Assembly (NCBI GenBank): GCA_903859705.1
Contig: CAIONQ010000079.1
Location: forward strand, 59,350-123,349
Source: an uncultured Chthonomonas sp.
Lineage (GTDB): Bacteria > Armatimonadota > Chthonomonadetes > Chthonomonadales > Chthonomonadaceae
Reading direction: 5' to 3'
Length of the DNA: 64,000 bases
Below are positions 820-59,331 of this stretch, piece by piece. A model generated the notes under the pieces. That model was not told the DNA's origin and did not search any database. It saw only the letters and a program-made list of their open reading frames with translations. Position 1 is the stretch's first letter. Each line of letters starts with the position of its first letter. The translations under genes and the position numbers were made by a program.

Positions 820-1896
820 TTAGCTACCGGGGCTAAGTACCACCTGTTTTGGAAATGCATAGGCGAGGTACATTGCGGTAAACGGCTCACCAACCAGCAT
901 CGCCGCAAGAAACCCTACCACCATGAACGGACCGAATGGGATTGCAGACGGTGCCGGTACCCAGGCATCCTCATCTATGGTTGGCTTGACATCCACACCA
1001 TGACGTGCTGCCAGTTTATCTCGGAAGTAATCCAGGATATCCTCAAACCAGAGAACATACCCAATCCAGCGAAGCTCCATCAGCAAGTTAGATTCTTCTT
1101 CCGGGGTGCTCTCCCCTTCGGATTCAGGCTGAACTTGCGGTACGTTTGCTGATTTTGCCCGTTTCCCACGCAGATAAATCATTGCTGGGCCTACAATTGC
1201 ACCAGATCCACAACATAGAATTGCCCATATTGGGATTAGGCGCAGTACCGACATGCCGACTGGTGTGATGGATACTAGCATGGCGCCCATTGCACGCGCC
1301 AGCAGCACATCCCCCAGCCCCATGGCTTCTTGCCTTTTCCACACCCAGCCAAGAACTCTCACTGAACCGAACACTGCAATACCCGCCGCGCCTCCAAGAA
1401 GCGATGCGGGCAGCCAACCGTACAGCAACGCATGGCCAGGTTCGTGGGTGGCAAATCCATACATATCTCGTGCGAAGGCCACTATGAATGCAAGAATGTT
1501 GAGCTGCGGCGGTATTTCAAACAGCTCCATATCTATGCAGTACATGGGCACCAGCAGTGCTATAAACGCGGTTAGCGCAATGGCATTTGCTGGTTCTTCT
1601 CGAAACCGAAGGTAAACCACAAGAAACAGGATGCCGGTAATTAGCTCTACCCAGAAATACCGTGATGAAATCGGCTTTTTACAGTATCGGCACTTTCTTC
1701 CACAGATGAGGTAACTCAGCAGTGGGAAGAGATCCAGGGCTGAAAGCTGATGTCCACACGAAGGGCAGTAAGACCACTGCGGCTTCGTGAGGGATCCATT
1801 ACGGGGCAGACGCCAGATGACGACGTTCAAGAAGCTGCCGATGCATATGCCCAGCAGGAACGTCGTCACGCTCCAGAACCAGTTTTGTACGGTCAT
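820..1896 (-). CDS. pilD: prepilin peptidase / N-methyltransferase (A24 family)
   Basis: This is an inner-membrane aspartyl protease that cleaves the prepilin leader and, in the family, N-methylates the new N-terminus. The N-terminal GSFLNVVIWRLP segment and paired cysteines (C44/C47 and C69/C72) match the methyltransferase part. The two catalytic aspartates are visible: D122 in YCIDMELFEIP and D196 in the GLGD motif. Several hydrophobic membrane segments are present. At 358 residues it is longer than the usual 250-290, because a hydrophilic Glu-rich stretch (about residues 245-315) sits before the last membrane segment. It lies 78 bp downstream of pilC, in the order pilB-pilT-pilC-pilD-prepilin on the minus strand. 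The family call is secure; the methylation activity is by analogy. Confidence 0.93.
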   Translation of the reverse strand: MTVQNWFWSVTTFLLGICIGSFLNVVIWRLPRNGSLTKPQWSYCPSCGHQLSALDLFPLLSYLICGRKCRYCKKPISSRYFWVELITGILFLVVYLRFREEPANAIALTAFIALLVPMYCIDMELFEIPPQLNILAFIVAFARDMYGFATHEPGHALLYGWLPASLLGGAAGIAVFGSVRVLGWVWKRQEAMGLGDVLLARAMGAMLVSITPVGMSVLRLIPIWAILCCGSGAIVGPAMIYLRGKRAKSANVPQVQPESEGESTPEEESNLLMELRWIGYVLWFEDILDYFRDKLAARHGVDVKPTIDEDAWVPAPSAIPFGPFMVVGFLAAMLVGEPFTAMYLAYAFPKQVVLSPGS

Positions 1897-1974
1897 AAGG
1901 TCGAGACAGACTTCATGGGTGAGTAATTGGGCGGCAGAGCATGTAACTGCAAAGCCGCCCAGTTTCTTCCAGAC

Positions 1975-3231
1975 CTATTCTTTGGTTGCTCCGCCGGATT
2001 TCGTATCGTCGTCATTACCGCCGGAGAGGTTTTGAATAACCTGCAGCAGCGGGGCGAACATTGCGATAACGATAAACCCAACGCAAACACCGAGGAAAAC
2101 GATCATAACGGGTTCGATTGCCGAGGTAAGGGACTGGAGTGTGGACTCCACTTCGCCCTCGTAGAACTCTGCAATTTTGGAGAGCATCTGATCCAGAGCT
2201 CCAGATTCTTCACCGATAGAGATCATGTGAACAACCATGGGCGGGAACATTTTGCTCTTTTCCAGCGGTTCGTTAACGCGGTCTCCTTCTCGAATTCTTG
2301 CTCTGGCGTTCATGATTGCTTCTGCAATGATTTCGTTACCAACGGTACCGGCAACGGTTTCCAACGCTTGAAGAATCGGGACGCCCGATACGAGCAGAGT
2401 AGAGAGAGTTCGCGAGAAGCGCGCCAGGCAGATTTTATGGCCGAGCTTGCCGAATACCGGAACTTTCAGCTTGAGGCGATCGATAACTCGGCGGCCAAGC
2501 TTGGTAGTACCTGCGTATTTGATGCTAACCCAGAGCAGAGCAACGATACCGATACCGATATACCACTTGGTCTTCAAGAAGTCGCTGAAGTCTACGAGCA
2601 TCTGCGTCATCATCGGGAGGTCTTTAACGCCGAGGTCTTTGAAGAGTTCAATAAACTTCGGAACGATAAATGTACAGAGACCGAGAACGATGAGGATAGC
2701 TACAACCACAACGATGGTAGGATAGGTAAGCGCCGCTTTAACCTTGCGGCGAAGTTCCATATCCTTTTCCAGGAAGTGGGAAAGGCGCTGCAGTGATTCT
2801 TCAAGTACACCACCGACTTCGCCTGCTCGGATCAAACCGATAAACAGGTTATTGAAGACTTTTGGGTATTTCTGCATGGATTTTGAAAGCGTTTGGCCGC
2901 TTTCTACTTCCACCTGAATTTCACGCAGGATGCGTTTGAGTTTCGGGTTTTGAGTTTGTTCTCCGAGAACGTCCAGCGAGCGTACAAGGGATACGCCCGC
3001 GTCGATCATGGTAGAGAACTGTCGGCAGAAGATGGAAAGGTCTTTGAGCTTAACGCGCCCAAAGCCAGCCCCGGCGCTTTTCTTCTTACCACCAGCGGCC
3101 TGTTTAAGGTCACTAACGGAGAAGCCCTGCTCCTGAAGGCGTTTCTTTAGTATGTCCTGATTTTCAGCCTCGGAAGTTCCCGTTCTCACGGCTCCGGTGC
3201 TATCGCGTACTGTGTACTGGTATACGGGCAT
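1975..3231 (-). CDS. pilC: type IV pilus inner-membrane platform protein PilC / GspF family
   Basis: This is the polytopic inner-membrane platform that connects the PilB and PilT motors to the growing pilus. The 418 residues match the family length of about 400. Two T2SSF repeats are visible: the first begins near LKDLSIFCRQFSTMIDAGVS and the second near ICLARFSRTLSTLLVSGVPI. Each is followed by a hydrophobic segment, and the C-terminal IEPVMIVFLGVCVGFIVIAM is typical. The N-terminus (MPVYQYTVRDSTG) is the standard cytoplasmic start. GGAGGA lies ahead of the ATG. It is 31 bp downstream of pilT and is presumably co-transcribed with it. Confidence 0.95.
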   Translation of the reverse strand: MPVYQYTVRDSTGAVRTGTSEAENQDILKKRLQEQGFSVSDLKQAAGGKKKSAGAGFGRVKLKDLSIFCRQFSTMIDAGVSLVRSLDVLGEQTQNPKLKRILREIQVEVESGQTLSKSMQKYPKVFNNLFIGLIRAGEVGGVLEESLQRLSHFLEKDMELRRKVKAALTYPTIVVVVAILIVLGLCTFIVPKFIELFKDLGVKDLPMMTQMLVDFSDFLKTKWYIGIGIVALLWVSIKYAGTTKLGRRVIDRLKLKVPVFGKLGHKICLARFSRTLSTLLVSGVPILQALETVAGTVGNEIIAEAIMNARARIREGDRVNEPLEKSKMFPPMVVHMISIGEESGALDQMLSKIAEFYEGEVESTLQSLTSAIEPVMIVFLGVCVGFIVIAMFAPLLQVIQNLSGGNDDDTKSGGATKE

Positions 3232-3262
3232 TTCTGGTTCCTCCAGAACGGAAACGAACTAC

Positions 3263-4543
3263 TTAGCGCTGGTATCCGGGCTGACCGGGTTGCGGCATGG
3301 TTGCCGTCTTGATCATCTTCTCAAGTTCTGGTGGGTTCTGCGCTCGGGTGATGGCCTCTTCGTACGAAATGGTGCCCCGTACATAAAGATCGCGCAGGCT
3401 CTGATCCATGGTTGTCATGCCCATGCTGGCACTTGTCTGGATCATGGATGTGATTTGGTGCGCCTTGGCTTCACGAATCAGGTTACGGATTGCAGGGGAG
3501 GCGCGCATGATTTCAAGGCAGCAAACGCGGCCTGGTTGATTGGCGCGCGGGATTAGCTGCTGGCAGAGAATTGCCTGCAGGTTATTGGAGAGCTGCAATC
3601 GCACCTGTTCCTGCTGACCACCCGGGAACGAGTCTACGATACGTTCAACCGAGGTAGCTGCCGAGTTGGTATGGAGTGTTGCGAAAACAAGGTGGCCGGT
3701 TTCTGCAGCAGAAACTGCCATCTGCATGGTTTCGAGGTCTCGCATTTCACCAACGAGGATTACATCAGGATCTTCTCGGAGGGAGGCGCGTAGTGCGTTT
3801 CGGAACTCCTTGGTATCCTGCCCAACTTCACGTTGGTTGATGATGCTGAACTTGTGGTTGTGCAGGTATTCAATTGGGTCCTCGATGGTGATGATGTGCT
3901 TGCTTTCTTCCGAGTTAATTCGGTTGATCATCGCCGCGAGAGTAGTAGATTTTCCGGATCCTGTAGGGCCTGTAACGAGAACAAGGCCGCGAGGGAGCTT
4001 GGTAAGTTCTTCCAGAATTCCCGGGAGTCCCAGTTGCTGCAGAGTAGGTATCTTCTGCGGGATCTGGCGGAAGGCCATTGCGCAGTTGCCTTTATCGCGG
4101 AATACGTTAACGCGGAAGCGGGCAATGCGTGCGAGCTGGTAGGAGAAGTCGAGTTCAAGATCGGTTTCAAATCGCTGAATCTGATCGTCCGTAAGGATAT
4201 CGTAGATGAGGCGCTGTGTGTGCTGCGGCGACATCTTTTCCCACGGCATTGGTACCAGAGCACCATCGACACGGATGATTGGCGGTATGCCTACTGCGAT
4301 ATGAAGGTCGGAAGAGCCCTTATCAACCATTGCGCGGAGCAGGTCATCGATATGGGCATCGTCCAGCGGAAGCGGTCGGGCCGATGCGGTCGGTACAGCC
4401 TGTGTTGGAACCTGCCCCTGTTGTGCAAGCGGGTTGTAGGCAGTGGGCTGTTGTGGAGCCAGCGGGTTATAGGGCTGATTTCCAGGGGCCGCGCCGGGTA
4501 TGGGCGGTACGCCCGGCGTATTCGGAAACTGGTTATTCGACAT
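3263..4543 (-). CDS. pilT: type IV pilus retraction ATPase PilT
   Basis: This is a hexameric cytoplasmic ATPase that powers pilus depolymerisation and so twitching motility. The Walker A motif GPTGSGKS lies near residues 192-199, the Asp box around ITIEDPIEY, and the Walker B region DPDVILVGEMRD near 258-269. The C-terminal AIRNLIREAKAHQI matches the PilT-specific retraction motif. Length is 426 residues, against about 345 for classical PilT. The extra length is an N-terminal Pro/Asn/Gln-rich tail of about 58 residues containing YNPLA twice, which precedes the normal start (IDDLLRAMVDKGSSDLHI). A GGGGAGAT Shine-Dalgarno precedes the ATG. It sits between pilB and pilC. Confidence 0.95.
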   Translation of the reverse strand: MSNNQFPNTPGVPPIPGAAPGNQPYNPLAPQQPTAYNPLAQQGQVPTQAVPTASARPLPLDDAHIDDLLRAMVDKGSSDLHIAVGIPPIIRVDGALVPMPWEKMSPQHTQRLIYDILTDDQIQRFETDLELDFSYQLARIARFRVNVFRDKGNCAMAFRQIPQKIPTLQQLGLPGILEELTKLPRGLVLVTGPTGSGKSTTLAAMINRINSEESKHIITIEDPIEYLHNHKFSIINQREVGQDTKEFRNALRASLREDPDVILVGEMRDLETMQMAVSAAETGHLVFATLHTNSAATSVERIVDSFPGGQQEQVRLQLSNNLQAILCQQLIPRANQPGRVCCLEIMRASPAIRNLIREAKAHQITSMIQTSASMGMTTMDQSLRDLYVRGTISYEEAITRAQNPPELEKMIKTATMPQPGQPGYQR

Positions 4544-4657
4544 CTAACATCTCCCCATATTAACGGCTTCGCGCCTGCGAGGTGAATATTGTCTCGAGGC
4601 GCGGAGCCCATTTCTTTGACTGCAAATCATAACGCGATAGCAGAGCTGATAGCTGGA

Positions 4658-6445
4658 TCAGTACCCTGCGGTGAAGACAACGCGCATAACCTCTTCAGGA
4701 GTGGTAAGTCCGGCAAGAACTTTCAGCAGGCCATCTTCCCTCAGCTCGTGCATTCCGTTTGCTTTGGCGGCAGCCTTTAGTTCGGTAAGCGGTGAGCGGT
4801 GGACAACCATTTCGGCCATTTCCCCGTTCATTCGCATCAGTTCGTAGAAGCCAATGCGGCCCTTATAGCCTGTATGCCTGCAGATTTCGCAGCCACGGCC
4901 TCGCCACAACTGCACCATCTGCTGCGGATCTTCAATCTCCATACCGAAGCGTTTAAGATCAATTGCGGGCACTTCATAGGCCTCTTTGCAGTTTGAGCAG
5001 ATCTTTCGGCCAAGGCGCTGAGCAACGATACCGACGAGCGTTGCAGCGATAAGGAAGGGTTCAACTCCCATATCAATAAGTCGGATAGTTGCGGATGGAG
5101 CATCGTTGGTATGCAGGGTGGAGAGCACAAGGTGGCCTGTAAGGGCTGATTCAACAGCGATTTCTGCTGTTTCCAGGTCTCTCATTTCTCCAACCATGAT
5201 GATATCCGGGTCCTGCCGTAGGAAGGATCGGAGAGCACTGGAGAATGTGAGGCCAGCTTTCTTGTTAACCTGCACCTGCGTGATACCGCTCAACTGGTAC
5301 TCGCACGGATCTTCAACTGTAACGATGTTCTTTTCGATATCGTTCAGTTTGTTGAGGAGCGAGTACTGGGTGGTGGTTTTACCGGAGCCGGTTGGGCCAG
5401 TGGATAGGAGCATACCGTTCGGCTGTTGAGAAAGTTCTTCTATCTGCATTCGAACTTCATCGGTAAACCCGAGTTTGTTCAAACCGATCATAACGCTTCC
5501 CTTATCGAGAATTCGCATAACGATCTTCTCGCCGTGGAGGTTGGGAAGGCAGGATACTCGAAGGTCGTAATCTTTACCGTCGTACTTAATCGCAATACGT
5601 CCGTCTTGCGGAACGCGGCGTTCTGCGATGTTCATTTCCGACATGATTTTGTAACGTGCGGTAAGCGGCATCTTAATGTAGTTCGGCATGGTCATTGTTT
5701 CATGCAGAACACCATCGATGCGGTACCGGACGCGTACAGCGCGGCGATCTGGTTCGATATGGATATCAGATGCGCGCTCTTTAATTGCTTGCTGGATAAT
5801 GGTGTTTGCGAGGCGGACGATAGGCGCATCTTCCGATGCCTTTACGCCATCATCCACATCTTCGCTATCCGAAACTTCTGCCTTGGCGGAGTACTGTGCC
5901 ATGGCGAGTTTCATTGCAGACTGGGAATCTTCATCCACCAGTTCGTTGCCGCGCATGGGGTTCATACCGCCCTTTGCGGGGGCGCCGGTGCCGGGTGCGG
6001 CACCATCAACCGTGGCGCTGCCGTAGAGCTTACCAATCGCCTCTTCAATATCCAGTGGAGAGGCAAGCACTCCACGGATAGAACAGCGGGATACCAGGCG
6101 GAGGTCGTCGGCGGCAGTGATGTTGTTAGGATCGGCCATTGCGACGTACAGGAACGTGCCGTCTTTTTTCAACGGCAAAACATTGTGCCGTTTGGCCACA
6201 TGCTGAGGCACGATGTTAACCGCGCTGGCTTCCGGCTTATACACCGAAAGATCAACGTAACCAACACCCATCTCATGTGCCTTGGCTTCATAAACATGCT
6301 TCGGATTCAAGCCGAGGTCGACCAGGATTTTAGCCAGGTCGCCTTTTGTAGTGGCCTGTGCTTTCCGGGCTTCCTCGATCTCATTAGCCGAGGCGTAACC
6401 CTTTTCTACCATGTAGTCGCCAAGACTCTTGCGTGCCATTACCAT
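4658..6445 (-). CDS. pilB: type IV pilus assembly ATPase PilB / GspE family
   Basis: This is the extension ATPase that drives pilin polymerisation. The N-terminal GSPII_E_N domain begins MARKSLGDYMVEKG. A low-complexity linker (about residues 145-180) follows, then the ATPase core with Walker A GPTGSGKT near 350-357 and Walker B DPDIIMVGEMRD. A tetra-cysteine zinc site (CSNC and CEIC) lies near the C-terminus. The frame is open further upstream to 6514, but the ATG at 6445 (MVMARKS) has a GGTGGGGG Shine-Dalgarno six bases ahead, giving 595 residues, close to the family length. It heads the pilus gene run, 150 bp after aroE. Confidence 0.95.
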   Translation of the reverse strand: MVMARKSLGDYMVEKGYASANEIEEARKAQATTKGDLAKILVDLGLNPKHVYEAKAHEMGVGYVDLSVYKPEASAVNIVPQHVAKRHNVLPLKKDGTFLYVAMADPNNITAADDLRLVSRCSIRGVLASPLDIEEAIGKLYGSATVDGAAPGTGAPAKGGMNPMRGNELVDEDSQSAMKLAMAQYSAKAEVSDSEDVDDGVKASEDAPIVRLANTIIQQAIKERASDIHIEPDRRAVRVRYRIDGVLHETMTMPNYIKMPLTARYKIMSEMNIAERRVPQDGRIAIKYDGKDYDLRVSCLPNLHGEKIVMRILDKGSVMIGLNKLGFTDEVRMQIEELSQQPNGMLLSTGPTGSGKTTTQYSLLNKLNDIEKNIVTVEDPCEYQLSGITQVQVNKKAGLTFSSALRSFLRQDPDIIMVGEMRDLETAEIAVESALTGHLVLSTLHTNDAPSATIRLIDMGVEPFLIAATLVGIVAQRLGRKICSNCKEAYEVPAIDLKRFGMEIEDPQQMVQLWRGRGCEICRHTGYKGRIGFYELMRMNGEMAEMVVHRSPLTELKAAAKANGMHELREDGLLKVLAGLTTPEEVMRVVFTAGY

Positions 6446-6595
6446 GAGTTTCCCCCACCTCTGCGCTCTCTGCCGACTGGTTCTGACCGGATTTACGCCG
6501 TGAATCAGACGCAAACCCTGCCGGGTAATCGCCCGATTATATCATACGGCACGGAAACACGCAAGCATGGATTCAGCGCCCACCCGAGACTTCGG

Positions 6596-51159: not shown

Positions 51160-51693
51160 ATGACACTCGCTCAAGTACAGGCGGCGGCTGCGTTTGTATC
51201 CTATCTCATTCTTACCTGGGCCGGCCTTATTATCGCCGTTGCACTGCTGGTGCCGGGTCATGCCGACCGCGCCAGAATTCAGGCTCAAGATCACACCGCA
51301 AAGAGCATTGTTGCGGGACTTGCGATGCTGATCCCAATTGCGTTTGCCCTCGCGATGGTACAGGGAGCCCCCCTGCTGCGTTTCCTTGGAATGCTGGTGA
51401 TCTTTGCATCTGCAGGCACACTTGTACTTGGCTCCAGTGGCATAGCTCTCATACTCAGTAAGCGAATAAGTGGCAGTGGCACCGATGCCAGTGAGTTTGG
51501 CGGCCTGCTGCGGGGTGCCCTGGTGTACAGCCTTGGGCTCGGCTTTCCGTTTGTGGGATGGTTTCTATTTTTGCCGGTTGCCCTGATTACTTCGCTGGGC
51601 GCTGGAGTTCGCGCTCTGATTAGCGCACGAAAGGCAGCAACGCCTGCTGCTCCTCAGTACGAGATACTCACCAACCAGGGAGCGGCGCAATGA
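51160..51693 (+). CDS. four-helix membrane protein of unknown function
   Basis: This is a 177-residue protein with four hydrophobic segments (about residues 12-32, 50-66, 72-98 and 122-146). No motif is recognised. AGGAGAC precedes the ATG. Its stop overlaps the ATG of the DUF1800 gene (ATGA), so the two are coupled. It may help anchor or assemble the exported DUF1800/DUF1501 proteins, but this rests only on position. Confidence 0.65.
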   Translation: MTLAQVQAAAAFVSYLILTWAGLIIAVALLVPGHADRARIQAQDHTAKSIVAGLAMLIPIAFALAMVQGAPLLRFLGMLVIFASAGTLVLGSSGIALILSKRISGSGTDASEFGGLLRGALVYSLGLGFPFVGWFLFLPVALITSLGAGVRALISARKAATPAAPQYEILTNQGAAQ

Positions 51694-53291
51694 GAGCTGC
51701 GCAGAGGCGAACCAGGGAAGCCGCTGTGGGGGCAACCACACCGGCCCTAACCCGCCGCCAACTGCTGGCATCTGCAGGTAGTGCCGCTGCTATTGCGATC
51801 TATGGCACGGGCTGTGCAGAAACCGCCAGGCAGGCTCGCAGCCTAACGGGTCCATTACCACTGGCTTACCTGCCTCTTTCGGCAGAACCGCAGACTCTAA
51901 AGCTAGCCCTGCACGCAGTGGCCCGTGCCGGGTTTGGCCCACTTCCGGGCGATGTTACGCGCGCTGCAATAATGGGCCCACGTGCGTGGGTAGAGCAACA
52001 ACTCACATCCTGGGGCTCTATCCCTGAGGATCCCGCCGTAGACTGGCGCGTAAACGCTTTAGATACACACCAGACGCAGCAAGAAGCTCCAGACGCGATG
52101 ATGAGCATGGAGTACGATCAACTGCTGGCAGAGACGGCCCAGGCAGCCGTGCTTCGTGCTCGATTTTCCACCAGACAACTCAAAGAGAACCTGATAGATT
52201 TCTGGACCAACCACTTCAACATCTATGCCTTGAAGAGCGACGGGCAGGCACTGGTGCCTACCGATATCGAAACCGTTATTAGGGCAAACTTCGATTCCTT
52301 TCCGAATATGCTGCGAGCATCCGCGCATAGCCCTGCGATGCTGAACTATCTGGACAACAAGTTCAATGAGAAAGGTGTTGCCAACGAAAACTACGCCCGG
52401 GAACTGCTGGAACTGCACACCCTGGGTGTGGATAGCGGTTATACGTTAACCGATATCAAACAGGTGGCAAGATGCTTTACAGGTTGGACGGTGAAAACCG
52501 GCTGGCAGCGCGGGCAATTTGTGTATACCGACAACCTGCACGATAAAGGTAGCAAGTACATTCCGTTTCTTAATCTGACCATTGCACCAAATGGTGGACA
52601 GAAAGATGCAGACGCGGTAATTGAAACGCTGGCATACCACCCGGCGACGGCGCATTTTCTGGCACGCAAACTATGCAAGCATTTTCTGGGTACAGTGCCA
52701 TTAGATACGCAGGATGCCGCCGTGCGCGCCTATCTTGGCAGTAAGGGCCGCATTTCATGCATGCTACGGCCAATACTACTGGATGCGCTGTTCTCTACGG
52801 AGCGGTGCCAACCCATTATCAAGCGGCCGCTCAATATGACGGTGTCTGCATTGCGGGCACTAAATGCTGATACGGATGGCGCGAGGCCCATACAGGTGCA
52901 TTTGGATACGATGGGGCAGCCACTGTATCAGTGGCCTATGCCAGATGGGTATCCCGAGAAGGCCTCGGCATGGGCAGCAAATTTGCTGCCAAGGTGGAAC
53001 TTCTCGCTTGCCCTAACCGCAAACACAATCCCGGGCACAACCACCAATTTGCCTGCGCTATTCACTGCGGCGGGTATTTCAGCAACAGAGTGTGGAGACG
53101 CGGGAATTCTTAAGCTCTCTGAGTTAGTATTGAATACGCCGGCAAACGTTATACAGCAACACTCACCGCAATTGGTTGCCGCGATGAAGCAACATGCCGC
53201 GGATGCAGCAGCAGCACATGTAAAGGTTCCGCAGATATTAGCGGAGTGTACAGCGTTACTGCTATCGTCACCAGAATTTCAGTGGAAATAG
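51690..53291 (+). CDS. DUF1800 protein with twin-arginine signal
   Basis: This is a 533-residue exported protein. The N-terminus has TRRQLLASAGSAAAI, a twin-arginine signal, then a hydrophobic stretch ending in GTGCAE that may be lipid-modified. DUF1800 landmarks are present: LIDFWTNHFNIYA, YARELLELHTLGVDSGYT, VARCFTGWT and LARKLCKHFLG. The family has no known activity. It is paired with DUF1501, 36 bp downstream, an order seen in several phyla. Confidence 0.88.
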   Translation: MRAAQRRTREAAVGATTPALTRRQLLASAGSAAAIAIYGTGCAETARQARSLTGPLPLAYLPLSAEPQTLKLALHAVARAGFGPLPGDVTRAAIMGPRAWVEQQLTSWGSIPEDPAVDWRVNALDTHQTQQEAPDAMMSMEYDQLLAETAQAAVLRARFSTRQLKENLIDFWTNHFNIYALKSDGQALVPTDIETVIRANFDSFPNMLRASAHSPAMLNYLDNKFNEKGVANENYARELLELHTLGVDSGYTLTDIKQVARCFTGWTVKTGWQRGQFVYTDNLHDKGSKYIPFLNLTIAPNGGQKDADAVIETLAYHPATAHFLARKLCKHFLGTVPLDTQDAAVRAYLGSKGRISCMLRPILLDALFSTERCQPIIKRPLNMTVSALRALNADTDGARPIQVHLDTMGQPLYQWPMPDGYPEKASAWAANLLPRWNFSLALTANTIPGTTTNLPALFTAAGISATECGDAGILKLSELVLNTPANVIQQHSPQLVAAMKQHAADAAAAHVKVPQILAECTALLLSSPEFQWK

Positions 53292-53327
53292 ACTGAGTTT
53301 GCATGCAATCAAACAGGCGACTAAACA

Positions 53328-54656
53328 ATGAATAAGCTACCAACGCGCCGTGAAGTTCTGAGTGGTGCCATGCTTGCCGCCGCTGCTGGAGCGGCCGCCG
53401 GATTGCACTCAACATCCTGCCTGGCTTCAATAGCTTTGAGCCCGGGAGAGAAGGAGCGTACGCACGATACGCTGGTGGTTATATTTCTGCGTGGTGGTGC
53501 AGACGGACTCAATATTGTTCCGCCTTATTTCGAAGATGAATATTACAGGCTTCGGCCAATGTTATCCCTTGCCCACCCAAACGACCGCAGGGCATCTGTA
53601 ACGGGTAGGACTGTGGATTTGGACGGAAAGTTTGGGTTGCATCCGGCACTTTCACCCCTGCTTCCACTTTATAAGCAGGGCCAGATGGCAGTGCTGCATG
53701 CCGTGGGCTCTGGCGATAACACACGGTCTCACTTTGAAGCTGTTGCCGCCATGGAAACTGGCAATGCCCGGAACGTAGGAGCTTCCAGCGGTTGGCTGGC
53801 CAGGCACCTTTCAGCCACCATGCGGGAGGATGATAGCCCTCTGCGTACCGTAGCAATCACCGAAACCATGCCAGATTCACTCAGGGGTGCACCCACCGCC
53901 GCTGCGCTGCTGCATCTTTCGGACTATCGGTTGGAGGTGCCTTCGTCTTCAAACCGTGGGCGTAAGCCTGGCACCCAGCCGCCGGTTGATAGATCTCTGG
54001 CAATGACTTCTACCTTACGAACTCTGTATGGTTCTGATCAAAACTCTTTGAGCACAGCAGGAAAGAATACTCTGGATGCTCTGGATGCCGTAAAGCGGCT
54101 TGATCCGGCTCATTACCGCCCGGCGAGGGGCGTATCTTACAACACGGAGCCCATTGGTTTGGGGTTAAAACAGGCTGCATGCCTTATCAAAGGACGTGTT
54201 GGCCTGGAAGTTGCTTGCCTTGAAATGCAGGGCTGGGATACGCACGTTACCCAGGGTAAAGAATCTGGCTTTCAGCCCACAAGGCTTAAAGAGCTGGGGG
54301 GTGCGCTAGCCGCATTTTGCACTGATATCGGCACCCAACTGCAGGGTGTAACCGTGGTTGTGATGACCGAGTTTGGGCGGCGCGCATATGAAAACACCGG
54401 GCTTGGAACCGACCATGGCAGGGGTGGTGCGTGGTTTGTAATTGGCGGCGGGATTCGAGGCGGTAAAGTGTACACGCGTTGGCCTGGATTGCATAAAAGC
54501 CAGCTTGATGAAGGCAATGACCTAAAGGTAACAACCGATTATCGCGATGTGCTTGCAGACGTGTTGGTGAACCGCATGGGGGCCACAAATCTGAACGCGG
54601 TTTTCCCCGATCACGCAGTTCATTTGCCCGGTCTGGCACATTCTGGCAATGTTTGA
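53328..54656 (+). CDS. DUF1501 protein with twin-arginine signal
   Basis: This is a 442-residue exported protein. TRREVLSGAMLAAAAGAAAG is a twin-arginine signal. The body has the DUF1501 motifs VVIFLRGGADGLNIVPPY, AVGSGDNTRSHFEA, WDTHVTQGKESG and VVVMTEFGRRAYENTGLGTDHG, which resemble a sulphatase/phosphatase-like metal site. It follows the DUF1800 gene, its usual partner. Function of the pair is unknown. Confidence 0.9.
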   Translation: MNKLPTRREVLSGAMLAAAAGAAAGLHSTSCLASIALSPGEKERTHDTLVVIFLRGGADGLNIVPPYFEDEYYRLRPMLSLAHPNDRRASVTGRTVDLDGKFGLHPALSPLLPLYKQGQMAVLHAVGSGDNTRSHFEAVAAMETGNARNVGASSGWLARHLSATMREDDSPLRTVAITETMPDSLRGAPTAAALLHLSDYRLEVPSSSNRGRKPGTQPPVDRSLAMTSTLRTLYGSDQNSLSTAGKNTLDALDAVKRLDPAHYRPARGVSYNTEPIGLGLKQAACLIKGRVGLEVACLEMQGWDTHVTQGKESGFQPTRLKELGGALAAFCTDIGTQLQGVTVVVMTEFGRRAYENTGLGTDHGRGGAWFVIGGGIRGGKVYTRWPGLHKSQLDEGNDLKVTTDYRDVLADVLVNRMGATNLNAVFPDHAVHLPGLAHSGNV

Positions 54657-54804: not shown

Positions 54805-57800
54805 ATGCCTGTTCCTTCTGATAGCAGCATAAACGACATCGAACGCCTGCGAACGCTCCAGGCCACCGGTTTGATGGATTCCGCAGCGTCGGAAACATAC
54901 GATCGTCTGGTTCGGCTCGCAGCAAAGATTCTTGATGCCCCGGTTGCCCTTGTTTCACTTGTGGATAACGAGCGTCAGTTCTTTAAGGGCTGCATAGGGC
55001 TCCCACTGGATCTGGCAAGATCACGGCAGACTCCCATTCGTCAGTCGTTCTGCCGATATGTAGTGGAATCGTCTAAGCCGTTGATCGTAAATGATGCCAG
55101 CCTCGATCCTTTATTGAAAGATCATCCGGCACACACAGAATTAGGCGTATGCGCTTACGCTGGTTTTCCCATTCGAACAACAGATAACGAGATATTAGGT
55201 TCGTTTTGTGTATTGGATTGGAAACCCAGAAAGTGGTTGCCAGAACAGCTGGACATCCTTGAAGATTTAACCCAATCCGTTATTACTGAGATAGAGCTAA
55301 GCCTGGCACTGCGCGAAATCCGAGTTGTTGCTGCAGAGAGCATGCTGAACGAAGCAAGAACCCACGCGGTTATTACATCTGCGCTGGATTGTATTATCTC
55401 TACAGACGAAAGCGGAACTGTACTCGAATTTAACCCGGCGGCAGAAGCTACTTTTGGGTACAAAGCCTCCTATGCTATTGGCAAACAGATGGTTGATCTG
55501 ATTGTGCCGCCAGCCTTTAGAGCGGCACACCTGGCGGGCATGGAGCGGTATCTGAAATCCGGAAAAGCCCACATAATAGGCAACCGGATTGAGATTGTAG
55601 CCCAGAAGGCAGATGGCAGTATCTTTCCTGTAGAGCTCGCGCTTACTGAACTCGAAATACCGGTGCGCATCTTTACTGCCTATATGCGTGATATTACAGA
55701 ACGCAAAAGTGCAGCTGAGGAGATTAACAGATCTTCTGCGATGCTGCAGGCGATTCAGAAAGCTCAGAGCCAGTTCATTCTTGACCTTACCGGGGCAACG
55801 GCATTCGAAGGCCTGCTGGCCAGCCTGCTATCTATGACTGGAAGTGAAAGCGGTTTTGTAGCAGAAGTTCTGCACTCTGAACAACGCACCCCGTACCTGC
55901 GCACCCGCGCTATTGCCGGAGAAGCCTGGGATGATTTGTGCCACGGTATTCTGGGTGACGGCCGGCAGGAATACATTGATTTTGGGAATCAGGATAATTT
56001 CCTGGGTGCCGCGCTTAATAGTGGTGCTCCAATCATATCCAACGATCCAAAATCTGATCCAAGATCCGGTGCCCACTATGGAGCGCAGCCTAAAATTGAA
56101 AATTTTCTGGGTATTCCGTTCATGCATGGCACAGAGATGGTGGGCATGGTGGGCATGGCTAACCGGCCCGATGGCTACAATGTTGGGTTAATAGACTACC
56201 TGCAGCCATTTTTAACTACCTGTGGCAACCTCATTTCTGCTCAGAGGGTGCGAGAGCAGCGTACGGCATTTGAAGAGCGGTTGAGGATTGAGCGAGATTT
56301 CAAATCTGCGATTTTTGATACGGCAACCGCATTGGTGCTTGTTCTGGATAGCAATGGCACTGTAGTAGATTTCAACCGCTCCTGCGAAAAGATGACCGGT
56401 TTTACTCGAGAAGAAGTTACCGGTGTACCTGTATGGGCTACTCCTTTTTATCCAAAGGAAGATCGCGAAGCATCACACAAATACTGGACAGAACGCACAA
56501 CAAACTGGCCCCCCGCGGTTCATGAGCGTTGGTGGATTTCTCGCAACGGATCGCGGCACCTCACGGCGTGGAACACATCGATTATTCGCGGTGAAGATGG
56601 CAAACCCGCGTTCTTTGTTCGCTGTGGCCTGGATATTACAGAGCAGCGGCGAAACGAGCAAGCCTTGCTGCAGGCGCGCCACCGCGAGATTGAGATTGGG
56701 GCTCAAATTCAGCAGACACTGTTAATGACAAAGCCACCGGAAGTGATTGCAGGGTTCCGGACGGGCGCTGTGATGCACGCTTCCCAGAAGATCGATGGCG
56801 ACTATATCGAGTTCTTCAACTGCGGTAACCAGCTACTTCACTTCGACTTTTTGATTGGCGACGTTATGGGCAAGGGCGCAACCGCTGCCCTGCTTGGCGC
56901 CGCAAGCAAAGGGCAGTTTCAACGGGCGATAAGACGCCTGATTATTCAAACCTCTGAGTTTGGCCGGGCGCCTGAACCAGAGGAGATTCTTGCTGCTGTT
57001 CAACAAGTAATGGCGCCAGAATTGATTCATCTGGATAGCTTTATTACGCTCAACTATGCGCGCTTCCATCCGGGTAAACGAATGCTTACCCTCATAGATT
57101 GCGGACATACGCGCACCATTCACTATCGCGCCCAAACTGAAGAGTGGGTTTACCTACAGGGTAATAATCTTCCGCTGGGCGTTTTGGAGCACGAAACCTT
57201 TGTGCCCCTATCTGTGCCTATCAATATCGGTGATATTGTTTTGTTTTATTCCGATGGAGTAACCGAAGCTGTGAATTCAGATGGTGAGTTCTTTGGAGAA
57301 GAGGGCCTGATGCATACGGTACAGGCGGCATCGCATATGCCGCCGCAGGAGCTTACAAACTTAGTTTTTGAGACGGTATGCGAGTATACCGGTACAAGGC
57401 AGGTTTCTGACGACTTTACATGCGTAGCATTCCGATTTGAGCAGGATACTTCCTACATTTCCGAGCACCGTGCCGCACGCGAGTTCCCGGCAACGATGGA
57501 TTCTCTTGAGGAGATTCGCATCTTTGTAACGGAATTCTGCCAGAAAGAAGTTGGCCCTCTGGTGGAAGATACCGTACACTTAATGGTACTGGCTGTTAAT
57601 GAAGCCATCACAAATATTGTTCGGCATGCATACGGCGGCAGGGATGGATACCACGTGCAGGTAATTATTGAAGCAGCTGCTGATGAAGTTATCTTCTACC
57701 TGCATGATGGTGGATTGCCGTTTGACCCGACTGGAATTCCGGAACCGGATTTCGATGGCGGCAAAGACGGCGGGTTCGGTCTGTTCATTATTCAGCAGTG

Positions 57801-57921
57801 CATGGATGCAGTTTATTACGAGCACTATGACCTTGGCAAGAACTGCCTCTCAATGTCGAGAAAAATTCGGCCGGAAGATCGAGTGGGTCCGGACAGGAGA
57901 CCAGCAGTTTATGATATTTGA
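54805..57921 (+). CDS. GAF-PAS-GAF-PAS-SpoIIE phosphatase-HATPase regulator
   Basis: This is a 1,038-residue cytoplasmic signalling protein. GAF1 lies at about residues 25-165, PAS1 at 180-305, GAF2 at 315-480 and PAS2 at 495-620. A SpoIIE-type PP2C phosphatase follows (about 640-860: KIDGDYIEFF, GDVMGKG, FYSDGVTEAV), then an RsbW-like HATPase (about 880-1025: VNEAITNIVRHAYGG, GGFGLFIIQQC). It thus combines the RsbU-like phosphatase and the RsbW-like kinase of partner-switching systems in one chain. It overlaps the STAS gene by 11 bp. The ligand of the sensor domains is unknown. Confidence 0.9.
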   Translation: MPVPSDSSINDIERLRTLQATGLMDSAASETYDRLVRLAAKILDAPVALVSLVDNERQFFKGCIGLPLDLARSRQTPIRQSFCRYVVESSKPLIVNDASLDPLLKDHPAHTELGVCAYAGFPIRTTDNEILGSFCVLDWKPRKWLPEQLDILEDLTQSVITEIELSLALREIRVVAAESMLNEARTHAVITSALDCIISTDESGTVLEFNPAAEATFGYKASYAIGKQMVDLIVPPAFRAAHLAGMERYLKSGKAHIIGNRIEIVAQKADGSIFPVELALTELEIPVRIFTAYMRDITERKSAAEEINRSSAMLQAIQKAQSQFILDLTGATAFEGLLASLLSMTGSESGFVAEVLHSEQRTPYLRTRAIAGEAWDDLCHGILGDGRQEYIDFGNQDNFLGAALNSGAPIISNDPKSDPRSGAHYGAQPKIENFLGIPFMHGTEMVGMVGMANRPDGYNVGLIDYLQPFLTTCGNLISAQRVREQRTAFEERLRIERDFKSAIFDTATALVLVLDSNGTVVDFNRSCEKMTGFTREEVTGVPVWATPFYPKEDREASHKYWTERTTNWPPAVHERWWISRNGSRHLTAWNTSIIRGEDGKPAFFVRCGLDITEQRRNEQALLQARHREIEIGAQIQQTLLMTKPPEVIAGFRTGAVMHASQKIDGDYIEFFNCGNQLLHFDFLIGDVMGKGATAALLGAASKGQFQRAIRRLIIQTSEFGRAPEPEEILAAVQQVMAPELIHLDSFITLNYARFHPGKRMLTLIDCGHTRTIHYRAQTEEWVYLQGNNLPLGVLEHETFVPLSVPINIGDIVLFYSDGVTEAVNSDGEFFGEEGLMHTVQAASHMPPQELTNLVFETVCEYTGTRQVSDDFTCVAFRFEQDTSYISEHRAAREFPATMDSLEEIRIFVTEFCQKEVGPLVEDTVHLMVLAVNEAITNIVRHAYGGRDGYHVQVIIEAAADEVIFYLHDGGLPFDPTGIPEPDFDGGKDGGFGLFIIQQCMDAVYYEHYDLGKNCLSMSRKIRPEDRVGPDRRPAVYDI

Positions 57922-58252
57922 GACTGTCAATTCTGGGGATGCTCTTATAATACGCATTCCGGGCCCGTCGTTAGACGCGCACACGTCTCCAGAGTTTAAG
58001 GAAGAGATCAAGCCACTTATCGACAGCAGTACTCAGATTGTACTGGATATGAGCGGTTTGAACTTCCTGGATAGCTCTGGCCTGGGTGCGATACTTACCT
58101 GCCTTCGGCGAACAACTGCTAATGGGGGCAAACTTGCCCTGTGTGGCATGCAGAAACAGGTGCGTATGCTGTTTGAGCTGGTGCGTGTTCACACCATATT
58201 CAAGATTTGTGCTACAGAGGATGAAGCTATAGCGATTGTGGCATCTGCCTGA
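57911..58252 (+). CDS. STAS-domain anti-anti-sigma factor
   Basis: This is a 113-residue STAS protein, the likely substrate of the phosphatase/kinase encoded upstream. IVLDMSGLNFLDSSGLGAIL contains the phosphorylatable Ser (DSSG). AGGAG stands ahead of the ATG at 57911, inside the end of the upstream gene. The open frame runs further upstream in the shadow of that gene. No sigma factor gene adjoins it; the sigma-like protein at 45499 is the only candidate in this window. Confidence 0.88.
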   Translation: MIFETVNSGDALIIRIPGPSLDAHTSPEFKEEIKPLIDSSTQIVLDMSGLNFLDSSGLGAILTCLRRTTANGGKLALCGMQKQVRMLFELVRVHTIFKICATEDEAIAIVASA

Positions 58253-58286: not shown

Positions 58287-58316
58287 TTGCAATATAGCTC
58301 CGCACTGGAGTACAAT
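58287..58316 (+). promoter_or_regulatory. promoter of the TPP riboswitch transcript
   Basis: TTGCAA (58287-58292), 18 bases, then TACAAT (58311-58316). A start near 58323 would put the riboswitch at the 5' end of the RNA. Confidence 0.7.
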
Positions 58317-58332
58317 TTCTTAACAGTTTCGT

Positions 58333-58435
58333 AACACTGTATATACCGCTAGGGGAGTCTGAAAGGACTGAGAGGGCTTAGTGCCGACCCTGGTACCTGA
58401 ACCGGATAATACCGGCGTAGGAAAGCGGCAGTGTC
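58333..58435 (+). ncRNA. TPP riboswitch (THI element)
   Basis: The conserved thiamine-pyrophosphate aptamer core is plain: AGGGGAGTC, then CTGAGAGGG, GACCC, ACCTGAACCGGATAAT and CGGCGTAGGAAAG. The P1 stem is ACACTG (58334-58339) with CAGTGT (58429-58434). It is on the plus strand, with a promoter just upstream and an intrinsic terminator downstream. The first gene after it is a DUF1559 prepilin, not a thiamine gene, which is unexpected for this riboswitch. Confidence 0.95.
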
Positions 58436-58472
58436 TTCAATAAGCAGTACTCACATTTGGTCTGCCCGAAGA

Positions 58473-58508
58473 GCCGCTCCTGCATAGCTAAATCAGGGGG
58501 CGGCTTTT
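58473..58508 (+). terminator. riboswitch expression-platform terminator
   Basis: GCCGCTCCTG (58473-58482) pairs with CAGGGGGCGGC (58494-58504), with one G-T pair and one bulge, followed by TTTTG. In the TPP-bound state it would stop transcription before the prepilin. Confidence 0.85.
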
Positions 58509-58542
58509 GTACTTTGGCCGTACCTCATTGGGAGCAGTACTG

Positions 58543-59331
58543 ATGATGCATCGATCGATGGCGAAAGCCTTCACACTCATAGAACTACTCGTGGTTATAG
58601 CGATTATCGCAATCCTTGCAGCCATTCTCTTTCCCGTATTTGGACAAGCCCGCGAAAGTGCCAGGCAAACGGTTTGCACCAGCAATGTGCGGCAGATTGG
58701 CCTTGGGCTACAGATGTATGTTCAGGATTTTGACCAGAGCTACCCTATCTTCTACGCTTACAATACGCAGGATCCGGTTACCTCCGCGCGCGCATGGTCG
58801 GGCGATGCTGCACACAAGGGCGTTGAGCTGCTGATTATGCCCTACGAGAAGAATAAAGAGATATTTAAGTGCCCGGATGATATGGGGGGCCCGGGCCTGG
58901 CGGACCCTACCTACGGCTGCCCGGGGCGAACCACATATCACGCATGCTATGGTTCCAGCTACCGGTTTGATATTGGCAGCTTCAGCATCGTTCCGAACGA
59001 ATCATCTCAAAACAACACCCTGTACACCGAGAGCCAACCAATAAGCGATTCGAGCTTTTCATCTCCATCTGAAACGCGCATTATGCGCGATGAGATGATG
59101 CCCTGGTTTGGCACAGACGCCAAGTATGGCTATCTGCCATCCTGGTTTACGCGCTGGCACAGCCGGGGCGGCGGCATTGTTTATGCCGATGGCCACTCCA
59201 AATTTGTTGTATCTGCCGGTGGTTTCGACAATCAGGTTGTGTGTGCAGGCGGGGGCCGCAGCGGCGATAAAGACCCGAATGCACCAGGCGATGGCAACGG
59301 ATACGGCACGTTTTACGGGATTTGCGACTGA
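58543..59331 (+). CDS. DUF1559-type prepilin downstream of the TPP riboswitch
   Basis: This is a 262-residue type IV pilin-like protein. A short basic leader leads to [19 protein letters not shown], with Glu at position 5 of the mature form. The [23 protein letters not shown] segment is typical of DUF1559. The C-terminal [14 protein letters not shown] holds the H-X9-DG motif. GGGAG lies eight bases ahead of the ATG at 58543. It is encoded right after the TPP riboswitch and its terminator. Its stop lies two bases from that of the convergent GNAT gene. A role in thiamine is not evident. Confidence 0.85.

Follow-up and report, generated by a model that had tools for sequence, protein, structure and literature searches.

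Why should a riboswitch for thiamine pyrophosphate (TPP) stand directly in front of a gene for a type IV prepilin? The question is raised by a 64-kb stretch of DNA from an uncultured Chthonomonas sp. of the phylum Armatimonadota, hereafter the window, which forms the last 64 kb of contig C79 (59350-123349 of 123349 bases) in a draft genome of 6.24 Mb. Near the end of the window a TPP aptamer and a terminator-like hairpin are followed by a gene of the DUF1559 prepilin family. A sequence-only reading of this DNA had offered two explanations: either thiamine status controls a surface pilin, or a thiamine gene was lost or displaced and the riboswitch now drives an unrelated gene. Comparison with relatives revealed that the same element precedes the same DUF1559 subfamily, here called subfamily I, across the phylum. 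We propose, with a probability of roughly 0.6, that the leader would shut off the prepilin gene at sufficient TPP and that the prepilin, tethered to the membrane or to a filament, would capture thiamine or a vitamer as part of a thiamine-salvage regulon. We place the prepilin in such a regulon because of the aptamer, the terminator-like hairpin, the gene order, the conservation of the pairing, the association in relatives with thiamine pyrophosphokinase (TPK) and a symporter, and a distribution inverse to that of thiC.

The aptamer, at 58341-58440 on the forward strand, matches the TPP riboswitch (THI element) family RF00059 with 72.1 bits against a gathering threshold of 54.3 (E 3.1e-12), all 105 model positions being covered. 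It is the only TPP match of the genome, and apart from it no Rfam family reached its cut-off in the window. The evidence for the aptamer is the covariance model, because plain energy folding of the aptamer stretch by itself is no better than that of shuffled sequences (z -0.78); from the RF00059 match, the leader RNA is predicted to bind TPP. A terminator-like hairpin at 58469-58508 (forward strand), with 13 pairs and a 3' arm that ends in UUUU, is the likely expression platform; its folding energy of -21.3 kcal/mol (z -2.28) was equalled by 4 of 200 shuffles. This hairpin is absent from the list of a consensus terminator scan, which probably missed it because of the long loop and the few Ts past the stem. 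When a less strict script criterion is applied, 27 of 36 TPP-prepilin leaders have a hairpin with a T-rich tail somewhere between the aptamer and the start codon, compared with 2.8 expected from shuffles preserving base composition only. The window's leader also contains a 6-nt complement that might act as an antiterminator; over the 27 leaders such complementarity was not above that of cross-pairs.

The prepilin gene itself lies at 58543-59331 on the forward strand and encodes 262 amino acids from the likely start, the ATG at 58543 with GGGAG at 58530, or 257 from the ATG at 58558. Its product scores 36.3 bits with PF07596 (DUF1559), whose cut-off is 23.3, and 31 bits with PF07963 (N_methyl), whose cut-off is 21.2. 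The succession of aptamer, terminator-like hairpin and pilin-like gene noted by the sequence-only reading was confirmed. Its promoter fared less well: a sigma-70-like match, TTGCAA-18-TACAAT, does exist at 58287-58316 (forward strand), but it is weak, with 9 of 12 positions matched and 0.5 such sites expected by chance in shuffles, and it is not established as a promoter. The next genes 3' of the prepilin encode a GNAT protein on the opposite strand and then a DinB-like protein, so that the transcription unit here is a single gene. The statement that no thiamine gene follows within 5 kb holds for the visible 4.7 kb, in which none was found; the contig ends where the window ends.

The sequence-only reading had named absence of the pairing from close relatives as part of what would speak against it; the opposite was found. 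Two sets of genomes were compared, a near set of 61 (the window's own genome and 60 relatives) and a phylum set of 291 Armatimonadota genomes. Most of the nearest protein relatives that have a name are assigned to Chthonomonadaceae, Chthonomonadales or Armatimonadota and one to Chloroherpetonaceae, and on this basis the phylum was taken as Armatimonadota. The near set contains 59 TPP elements spread over 51 genomes, and when the sequence behind all 59 was read, a prepilin motif appeared within 1600 nt in 37. Thirty-four of these prepilins belong to subfamily I and two (G044, G057) to another subfamily, while in one case (G051) the prepilin lies behind a different gene; the other 22 elements precede thiamine-like genes (thiC, thiG, thiE, thi4 and thiM, by reading) or genes that we could not name. 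In the phylum set, subfamily I occurs in 136 of 291 genomes from 12 families, and TPP elements occur in 224. Among the matches listed, the TPP element stands directly 5' of the subfamily I gene in 96 of the 98 genomes with both coordinates; a direct scan of the two left over (G078, G079) and of nine further genomes found a TPP element upstream in every one, bringing the count to 107 of 107 genomes where both could be placed. Each of the remaining 29 subfamily I genomes also contains a TPP element, its position relative to the prepilin not being placed. Judged from these genome comparisons, the TPP-DUF1559 pairing is old and conserved. This supports the first of the two explanations, in which thiamine status would control the prepilin and the prepilin would presumably be a surface pilin.

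Two observations on individual loci may be added. Tandem TPP-linked prepilins occur at G042:C3:37469-38769 (L030) and at G076:C71 (L238), where the copy closest to the riboswitch seems to be cut short or interrupted and is followed by a fuller one. Genome G196 (L258) has a TPP element with neither a thiC match nor either of the two riboswitch-linked DUF1559 subfamilies discussed below, and the first sizeable frame behind the element looks like a membrane protein, which may be another thiamine importer.

We also considered that the prepilin might be a chance neighbour of the riboswitch, given how numerous its family is: the window's genome has 46 DUF1559 matches, the window prepilin included. 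A random TPP element would, however, rarely precede one of 46 matches in a 6.2-Mb genome, and a search of 29 of the genome's other DUF1559 loci against every Rfam family found no riboswitch over cut-off; the chance explanation was rejected. Subfamily I forms one side of a branch in our first tree (63 of 63 rows, SH-aLRT (Shimodaira-Hasegawa-like approximate likelihood ratio test) 89) and again in a later tree (26 of 26, SH-aLRT 97). Its near-invariant residues, for example I64, F65, A67, Y68, N69, H86, E90, R174, R177, E179, M180, Y192, F223 and D224, are each present in at most 10% of the 29 paralogs. The C-terminal H-X9-DG motif of DUF1559 corresponds to H201 and D211-G212 of the window prepilin, which 31 or more of the 33 orthologs and most of the 29 paralogs share; the NCBIfam scan listed no H-X9-DG model at E ≤ 0.001.

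A second riboswitch-linked group, subfamily II, has a different C-terminal signature and was found in 8 of 291 genomes of families f17, f41 and f43. It too forms one side of a branch in the later tree (SH-aLRT 99). All seven testable loci have a TPP element immediately in front of the gene, the eighth locus being cut by a contig end. The first tree had suggested that the two subfamilies were recruited to the riboswitch independently. We do not claim this, as an approximately unbiased (AU) test, made on a 61-row set that omitted part of an earlier 109 rows and included three new subfamily II sequences, did not reject a tree joining subfamilies I and II (p-AU 0.56); by this test one origin and two origins would both be compatible with the data.

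What follows the prepilin in relatives points to its possible role. Of the 72 TPP-subfamily I loci fetched, 26 have a same-strand TPK gene no more than 5 kb downstream and 14 have a sodium:solute symporter of the SSS family; both counts are minima, many fetched stretches reaching at most 1.5 kb past the aptamer. One of the 26 kinase loci (G016) has an extra gene in between, and a nearby kinase on the opposite strand in G015 was not counted. By coordinates, the symporter is next in line in nine more loci (G002, G012, G017, G019, G020, G021, G029, G042 and G025, the last across a contig break). The subfamily I loci with a kinase belong to families f1, f2, f3, f13, f15, f24 and f35, and the order TPP element, subfamily II prepilin, TPK and SSS symporter is seen in three loci of f41 and f43; thus in some loci of nine bacterial families a prepilin of one subfamily or the other is followed by the kinase and often then by the symporter. 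As in the window, neither gene was found behind the prepilin in the fetched stretch of the loci examined in f14 (21 loci in a family of 77 genomes), f28, f30, f6 and f7, nor in the two f17 subfamily II loci with downstream sequence. Across the near set the symporter tracks the prepilin: it occurs in 22 of the 34 subfamily I genomes, whereas just three of the 27 others have it, namely G044 and G057, which carry subfamily II, and G060.

The layout of a salvage operon, in which the riboswitch is followed by kinase and transporter, is thus seen in relatives; in the window's genome these functions are not linked to the riboswitch. Its TPK gene is on another contig (G000:C105:67799-68092; TIGR01378, 110.7 bits, cut-off 76.4), and no relative of the SSS symporter was found in the genome at E ≤ 1e-40. 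The importer here might instead belong to the PnuC/PnuT family (PF04973), of which one protein is encoded on the window's contig outside the window (G000:C79:3270-3812, locus L249). PF04973 was found in 9 of the 12 subfamily I genomes without the symporter versus 1 of the 22 with it, an occurrence complementary to that of SSS. In family f14 (G041), however, its neighbour looks, by reading of the sequence, like a nicotinamide mononucleotide (NMN) adenylyltransferase, and nicotinamide riboside transport is therefore as likely a function for the f14 protein. We regard the PnuC/PnuT protein as a lead and as one candidate for the importer replacing the symporter, the neighbours seen not supporting a role in thiamine transport.

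The distribution of thiC, which accounts for de novo synthesis of the pyrimidine hydroxymethylpyrimidine (HMP), is the inverse of that of the prepilin. A thiC match was found in 121 of 291 genomes overall; among the 144 genomes that carry either subfamily it is present in 7, and among the 147 with neither it is present in 114 (Fisher 1e-40, uncorrected for kinship). Tallied by hand at the level of families, a carrier with a thiC match exists in 5 of the 15 carrier families, versus 27 of 30 other families (p 2e-4). The two traits also trade off within families: in f43, the prepilin occurs without thiC in G258 and G259, and thiC without either subfamily in G260-G264; in f3, G027 and G030 carry thiC but lack subfamily I. 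One of the seven genomes with both (G106) has only a thiC fragment, and the other six (G003, G020, G025, G061, G078 and G079) each carry two TPP elements. The label "auxotroph" for the carriers is to be read as a statement about thiC, the thiamine synthesis gene searched genome-wide, and not about thiE, thiG, thiD or thiL.

The protein itself is predicted with high scores (predicted local distance difference test (pLDDT) 93.1; predicted template modelling score (pTM) 0.86), and its nearest solved structures are type IV pilins. As to a two-lobed fold of the kind found in binding proteins, the seven VIA-align rows shown were all type IV pilins, and a match beyond these seven rows may be of another fold. 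Machinery for filament assembly, of the type IV pilus kind, is present in the same genome, about 52 kb from the prepilin, as a row of PilD-, PilC-, PilT- and PilB-like genes on the reverse strand of the window (820-6514). The row comprises a candidate prepilin peptidase (PilD-like, 820..1896; above cut-off with A24_N_bact at 107.2 bits, below the cut-off of 26.5 with Peptidase_A24 at 21.7 bits; no NCBIfam match), which would process the prepilin, a platform protein (PilC-like, 1975..3231; T2SSF 234.7 bits), an ATPase that we call PilT-like by its size and position (3263..4543; T2SSE 176.3 bits), and an assembly ATPase (4658..6514; T2SSE 448.4 bits and MshEN 69 bits) for which the label PilB-like is our own. 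From gene content, assembly of this prepilin by the Pil set is possible.

These elements might work together as follows. When TPP is scarce, transcription would run through the leader. The prepilin would then be cleaved by PilD and the product held in the membrane or in a short filament, with the C-terminal domain exposed outside the inner membrane, where it might bind thiamine or a vitamer. The vitamin would be handed to an inner-membrane importer, the SSS symporter in many relatives and perhaps the PnuC/PnuT-family protein in the window's genome, and TPK would trap the incoming thiamine as TPP, upon which the switch would close.

Other explanations need to be weighed against this scenario. 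The prepilin might form an adhesive or motile filament that is induced by thiamine hunger and lets the cell attach to, or move toward, thiamine producers, without binding the vitamin at all; the pilin signal, the pilin-like predicted fold, the PilBTCD-like set in the same window and the loci in f6, f7, f14, f17, f28 and f30 where neither kinase nor symporter follows are all consistent with it. Yet a filament of this kind does not readily account for a prepilin placed ahead of TPK, and often of the symporter, in nine families, as kinase and transporter are cell-autonomous functions, nor for conserved residues that are specific to the subfamily and lie in the C-terminal domain, beyond the assembly helix; we consider it unlikely. 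Capture of a precursor such as HMP, or of a degradation product, in place of thiamine itself would suit cells that, without thiC, need either HMP or thiamine, and a precedent might be seen in the SSS protein ThiV of Pelagibacter, which, in the accessible part of one report, is connected with the uptake of HMP and with a TPP riboswitch (PMC11452348). The enzyme linked to the prepilin, however, is TPK, which acts on whole thiamine, and this makes a precursor quite unlikely as the captured molecule.

Should the C-terminal domain be secreted and act as an enzyme that releases thiamine from TPP, thiamine monophosphate or another vitamer ahead of uptake, the conserved H86, E90, R174, R177, E179 and H201/D211/H213 could be catalytic, and the downstream kinase would indeed need free thiamine. 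But H201, D211 and H213 are common to most or all paralogs, and the window protein has neither a match to an enzyme family nor a significant match to an enzyme fold, so that we hold this to be very unlikely. Lastly, the pairing could be a passive leftover, with a transporter or kinase gene that once followed the riboswitch having disappeared and the prepilin remaining, as might be suggested by the window's genome, with its TPK on another contig and its symporter not found. Against this, where relatives have retained the operon the prepilin stands between riboswitch and kinase, and the pairing is also kept at loci with neither TPK nor SSS behind it; with the pairing in 107 of 107 testable genomes, we rejected this explanation as improbable in the extreme. 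The suggestion that a thiamine gene was lost or displaced is therefore half right as history, TPK and symporter following the prepilin in many relatives, but the prepilin was wrongly taken for an unrelated gene, because it is the constant member of these riboswitch loci.

A tethered capture protein for thiamine would have parallels among known systems. Bacteroides has thiamine uptake operons, OMthi, pnuT and tnr3, under TPP riboswitches, which share with the proposed system the riboswitch, a component for capture on the outside, a transporter in the inner membrane and TPK, often in one operon and sometimes split with the riboswitch kept, as far as the accessible part of the report describes them (PMC5613172). 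In the present case, capture would fall to a DUF1559 prepilin in place of a TonB-dependent receptor, the transporter found in linkage belongs to the SSS family, and most carriers have no thiC match. ThiV of SAR11, whose cells are unable to make HMP, is likewise a symporter of the SSS family associated with a TPP riboswitch; the accessible part of the report mentions no prepilin partner (PMC11452348), and our comparison with the symporter here is by family, not by orthology.

To our knowledge, a nutrient-binding protein with a prepilin signal has a single precedent, the archaeal bindosome. In Sulfolobus, sugar-binding proteins carry class III (prepilin) signal peptides and are assembled by a type IV filament machine, the dedicated Bas system, according to the portion of the source available (PMC4471445). 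The window prepilin has such a class III signal and is predicted to bind its ligand; unlike the Sulfolobus proteins, it is bacterial, its predicted ligand is a vitamin, its predicted fold is pilin-like, and no assembly genes adjoin it, the Pil set being 52 kb away. DUF1559 has also been called a solute-binding family (SBP_bac_10), with no ligand or regulon given in the accessible part of that paper, which counts 74 paralogs in the planctomycete R. baltica (PMC2754498). The R. baltica set and that of the window's genome belong to the same Pfam family with dozens of paralogs each (74 versus 46 matches), but the former has no ligand stated there while genome context predicts one for the TPP-linked subfamily. 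More tentatively, and perhaps somewhat against the odds, DUF1559 prepilins in general might be a bacterial counterpart of the archaeal bindosome, a large filament-tethered set of nutrient-binding proteins with each subfamily tuned to one nutrient, among which the TPP-linked subfamilies would be the thiamine receptors and the first with a ligand that is deducible from genome sequence.

We found no published link between DUF1559 or pilins and TPP riboswitches in the open literature, most subscription journals and preprints lying outside the search, and within the literature searched a prepilin has not been reported before as a component of a TPP-regulated thiamine salvage regulon. Since the riboswitch names the metabolite that is sensed, this branch of DUF1559 gets a specific and cheap test, thiamine binding. 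If the proposal is true, type IV pilin-like proteins would be part of bacterial vitamin uptake, which would provide a handle on the rest of the DUF1559 family and help explain the vitamin B1 supply of the many members of the phylum without a thiC match.

The genes immediately upstream of the riboswitch have no evident thiamine link: at 54805-58252 on the forward strand of the window lie a regulator with SpoIIE, HATPase, PAS and GAF domains and then a STAS-domain protein. Further upstream, at 51690-54656 on the same strand, are two adjacent genes with signals resembling those for twin-arginine translocation (Tat), presumably a pair of the DUF1800/DUF1501 type.
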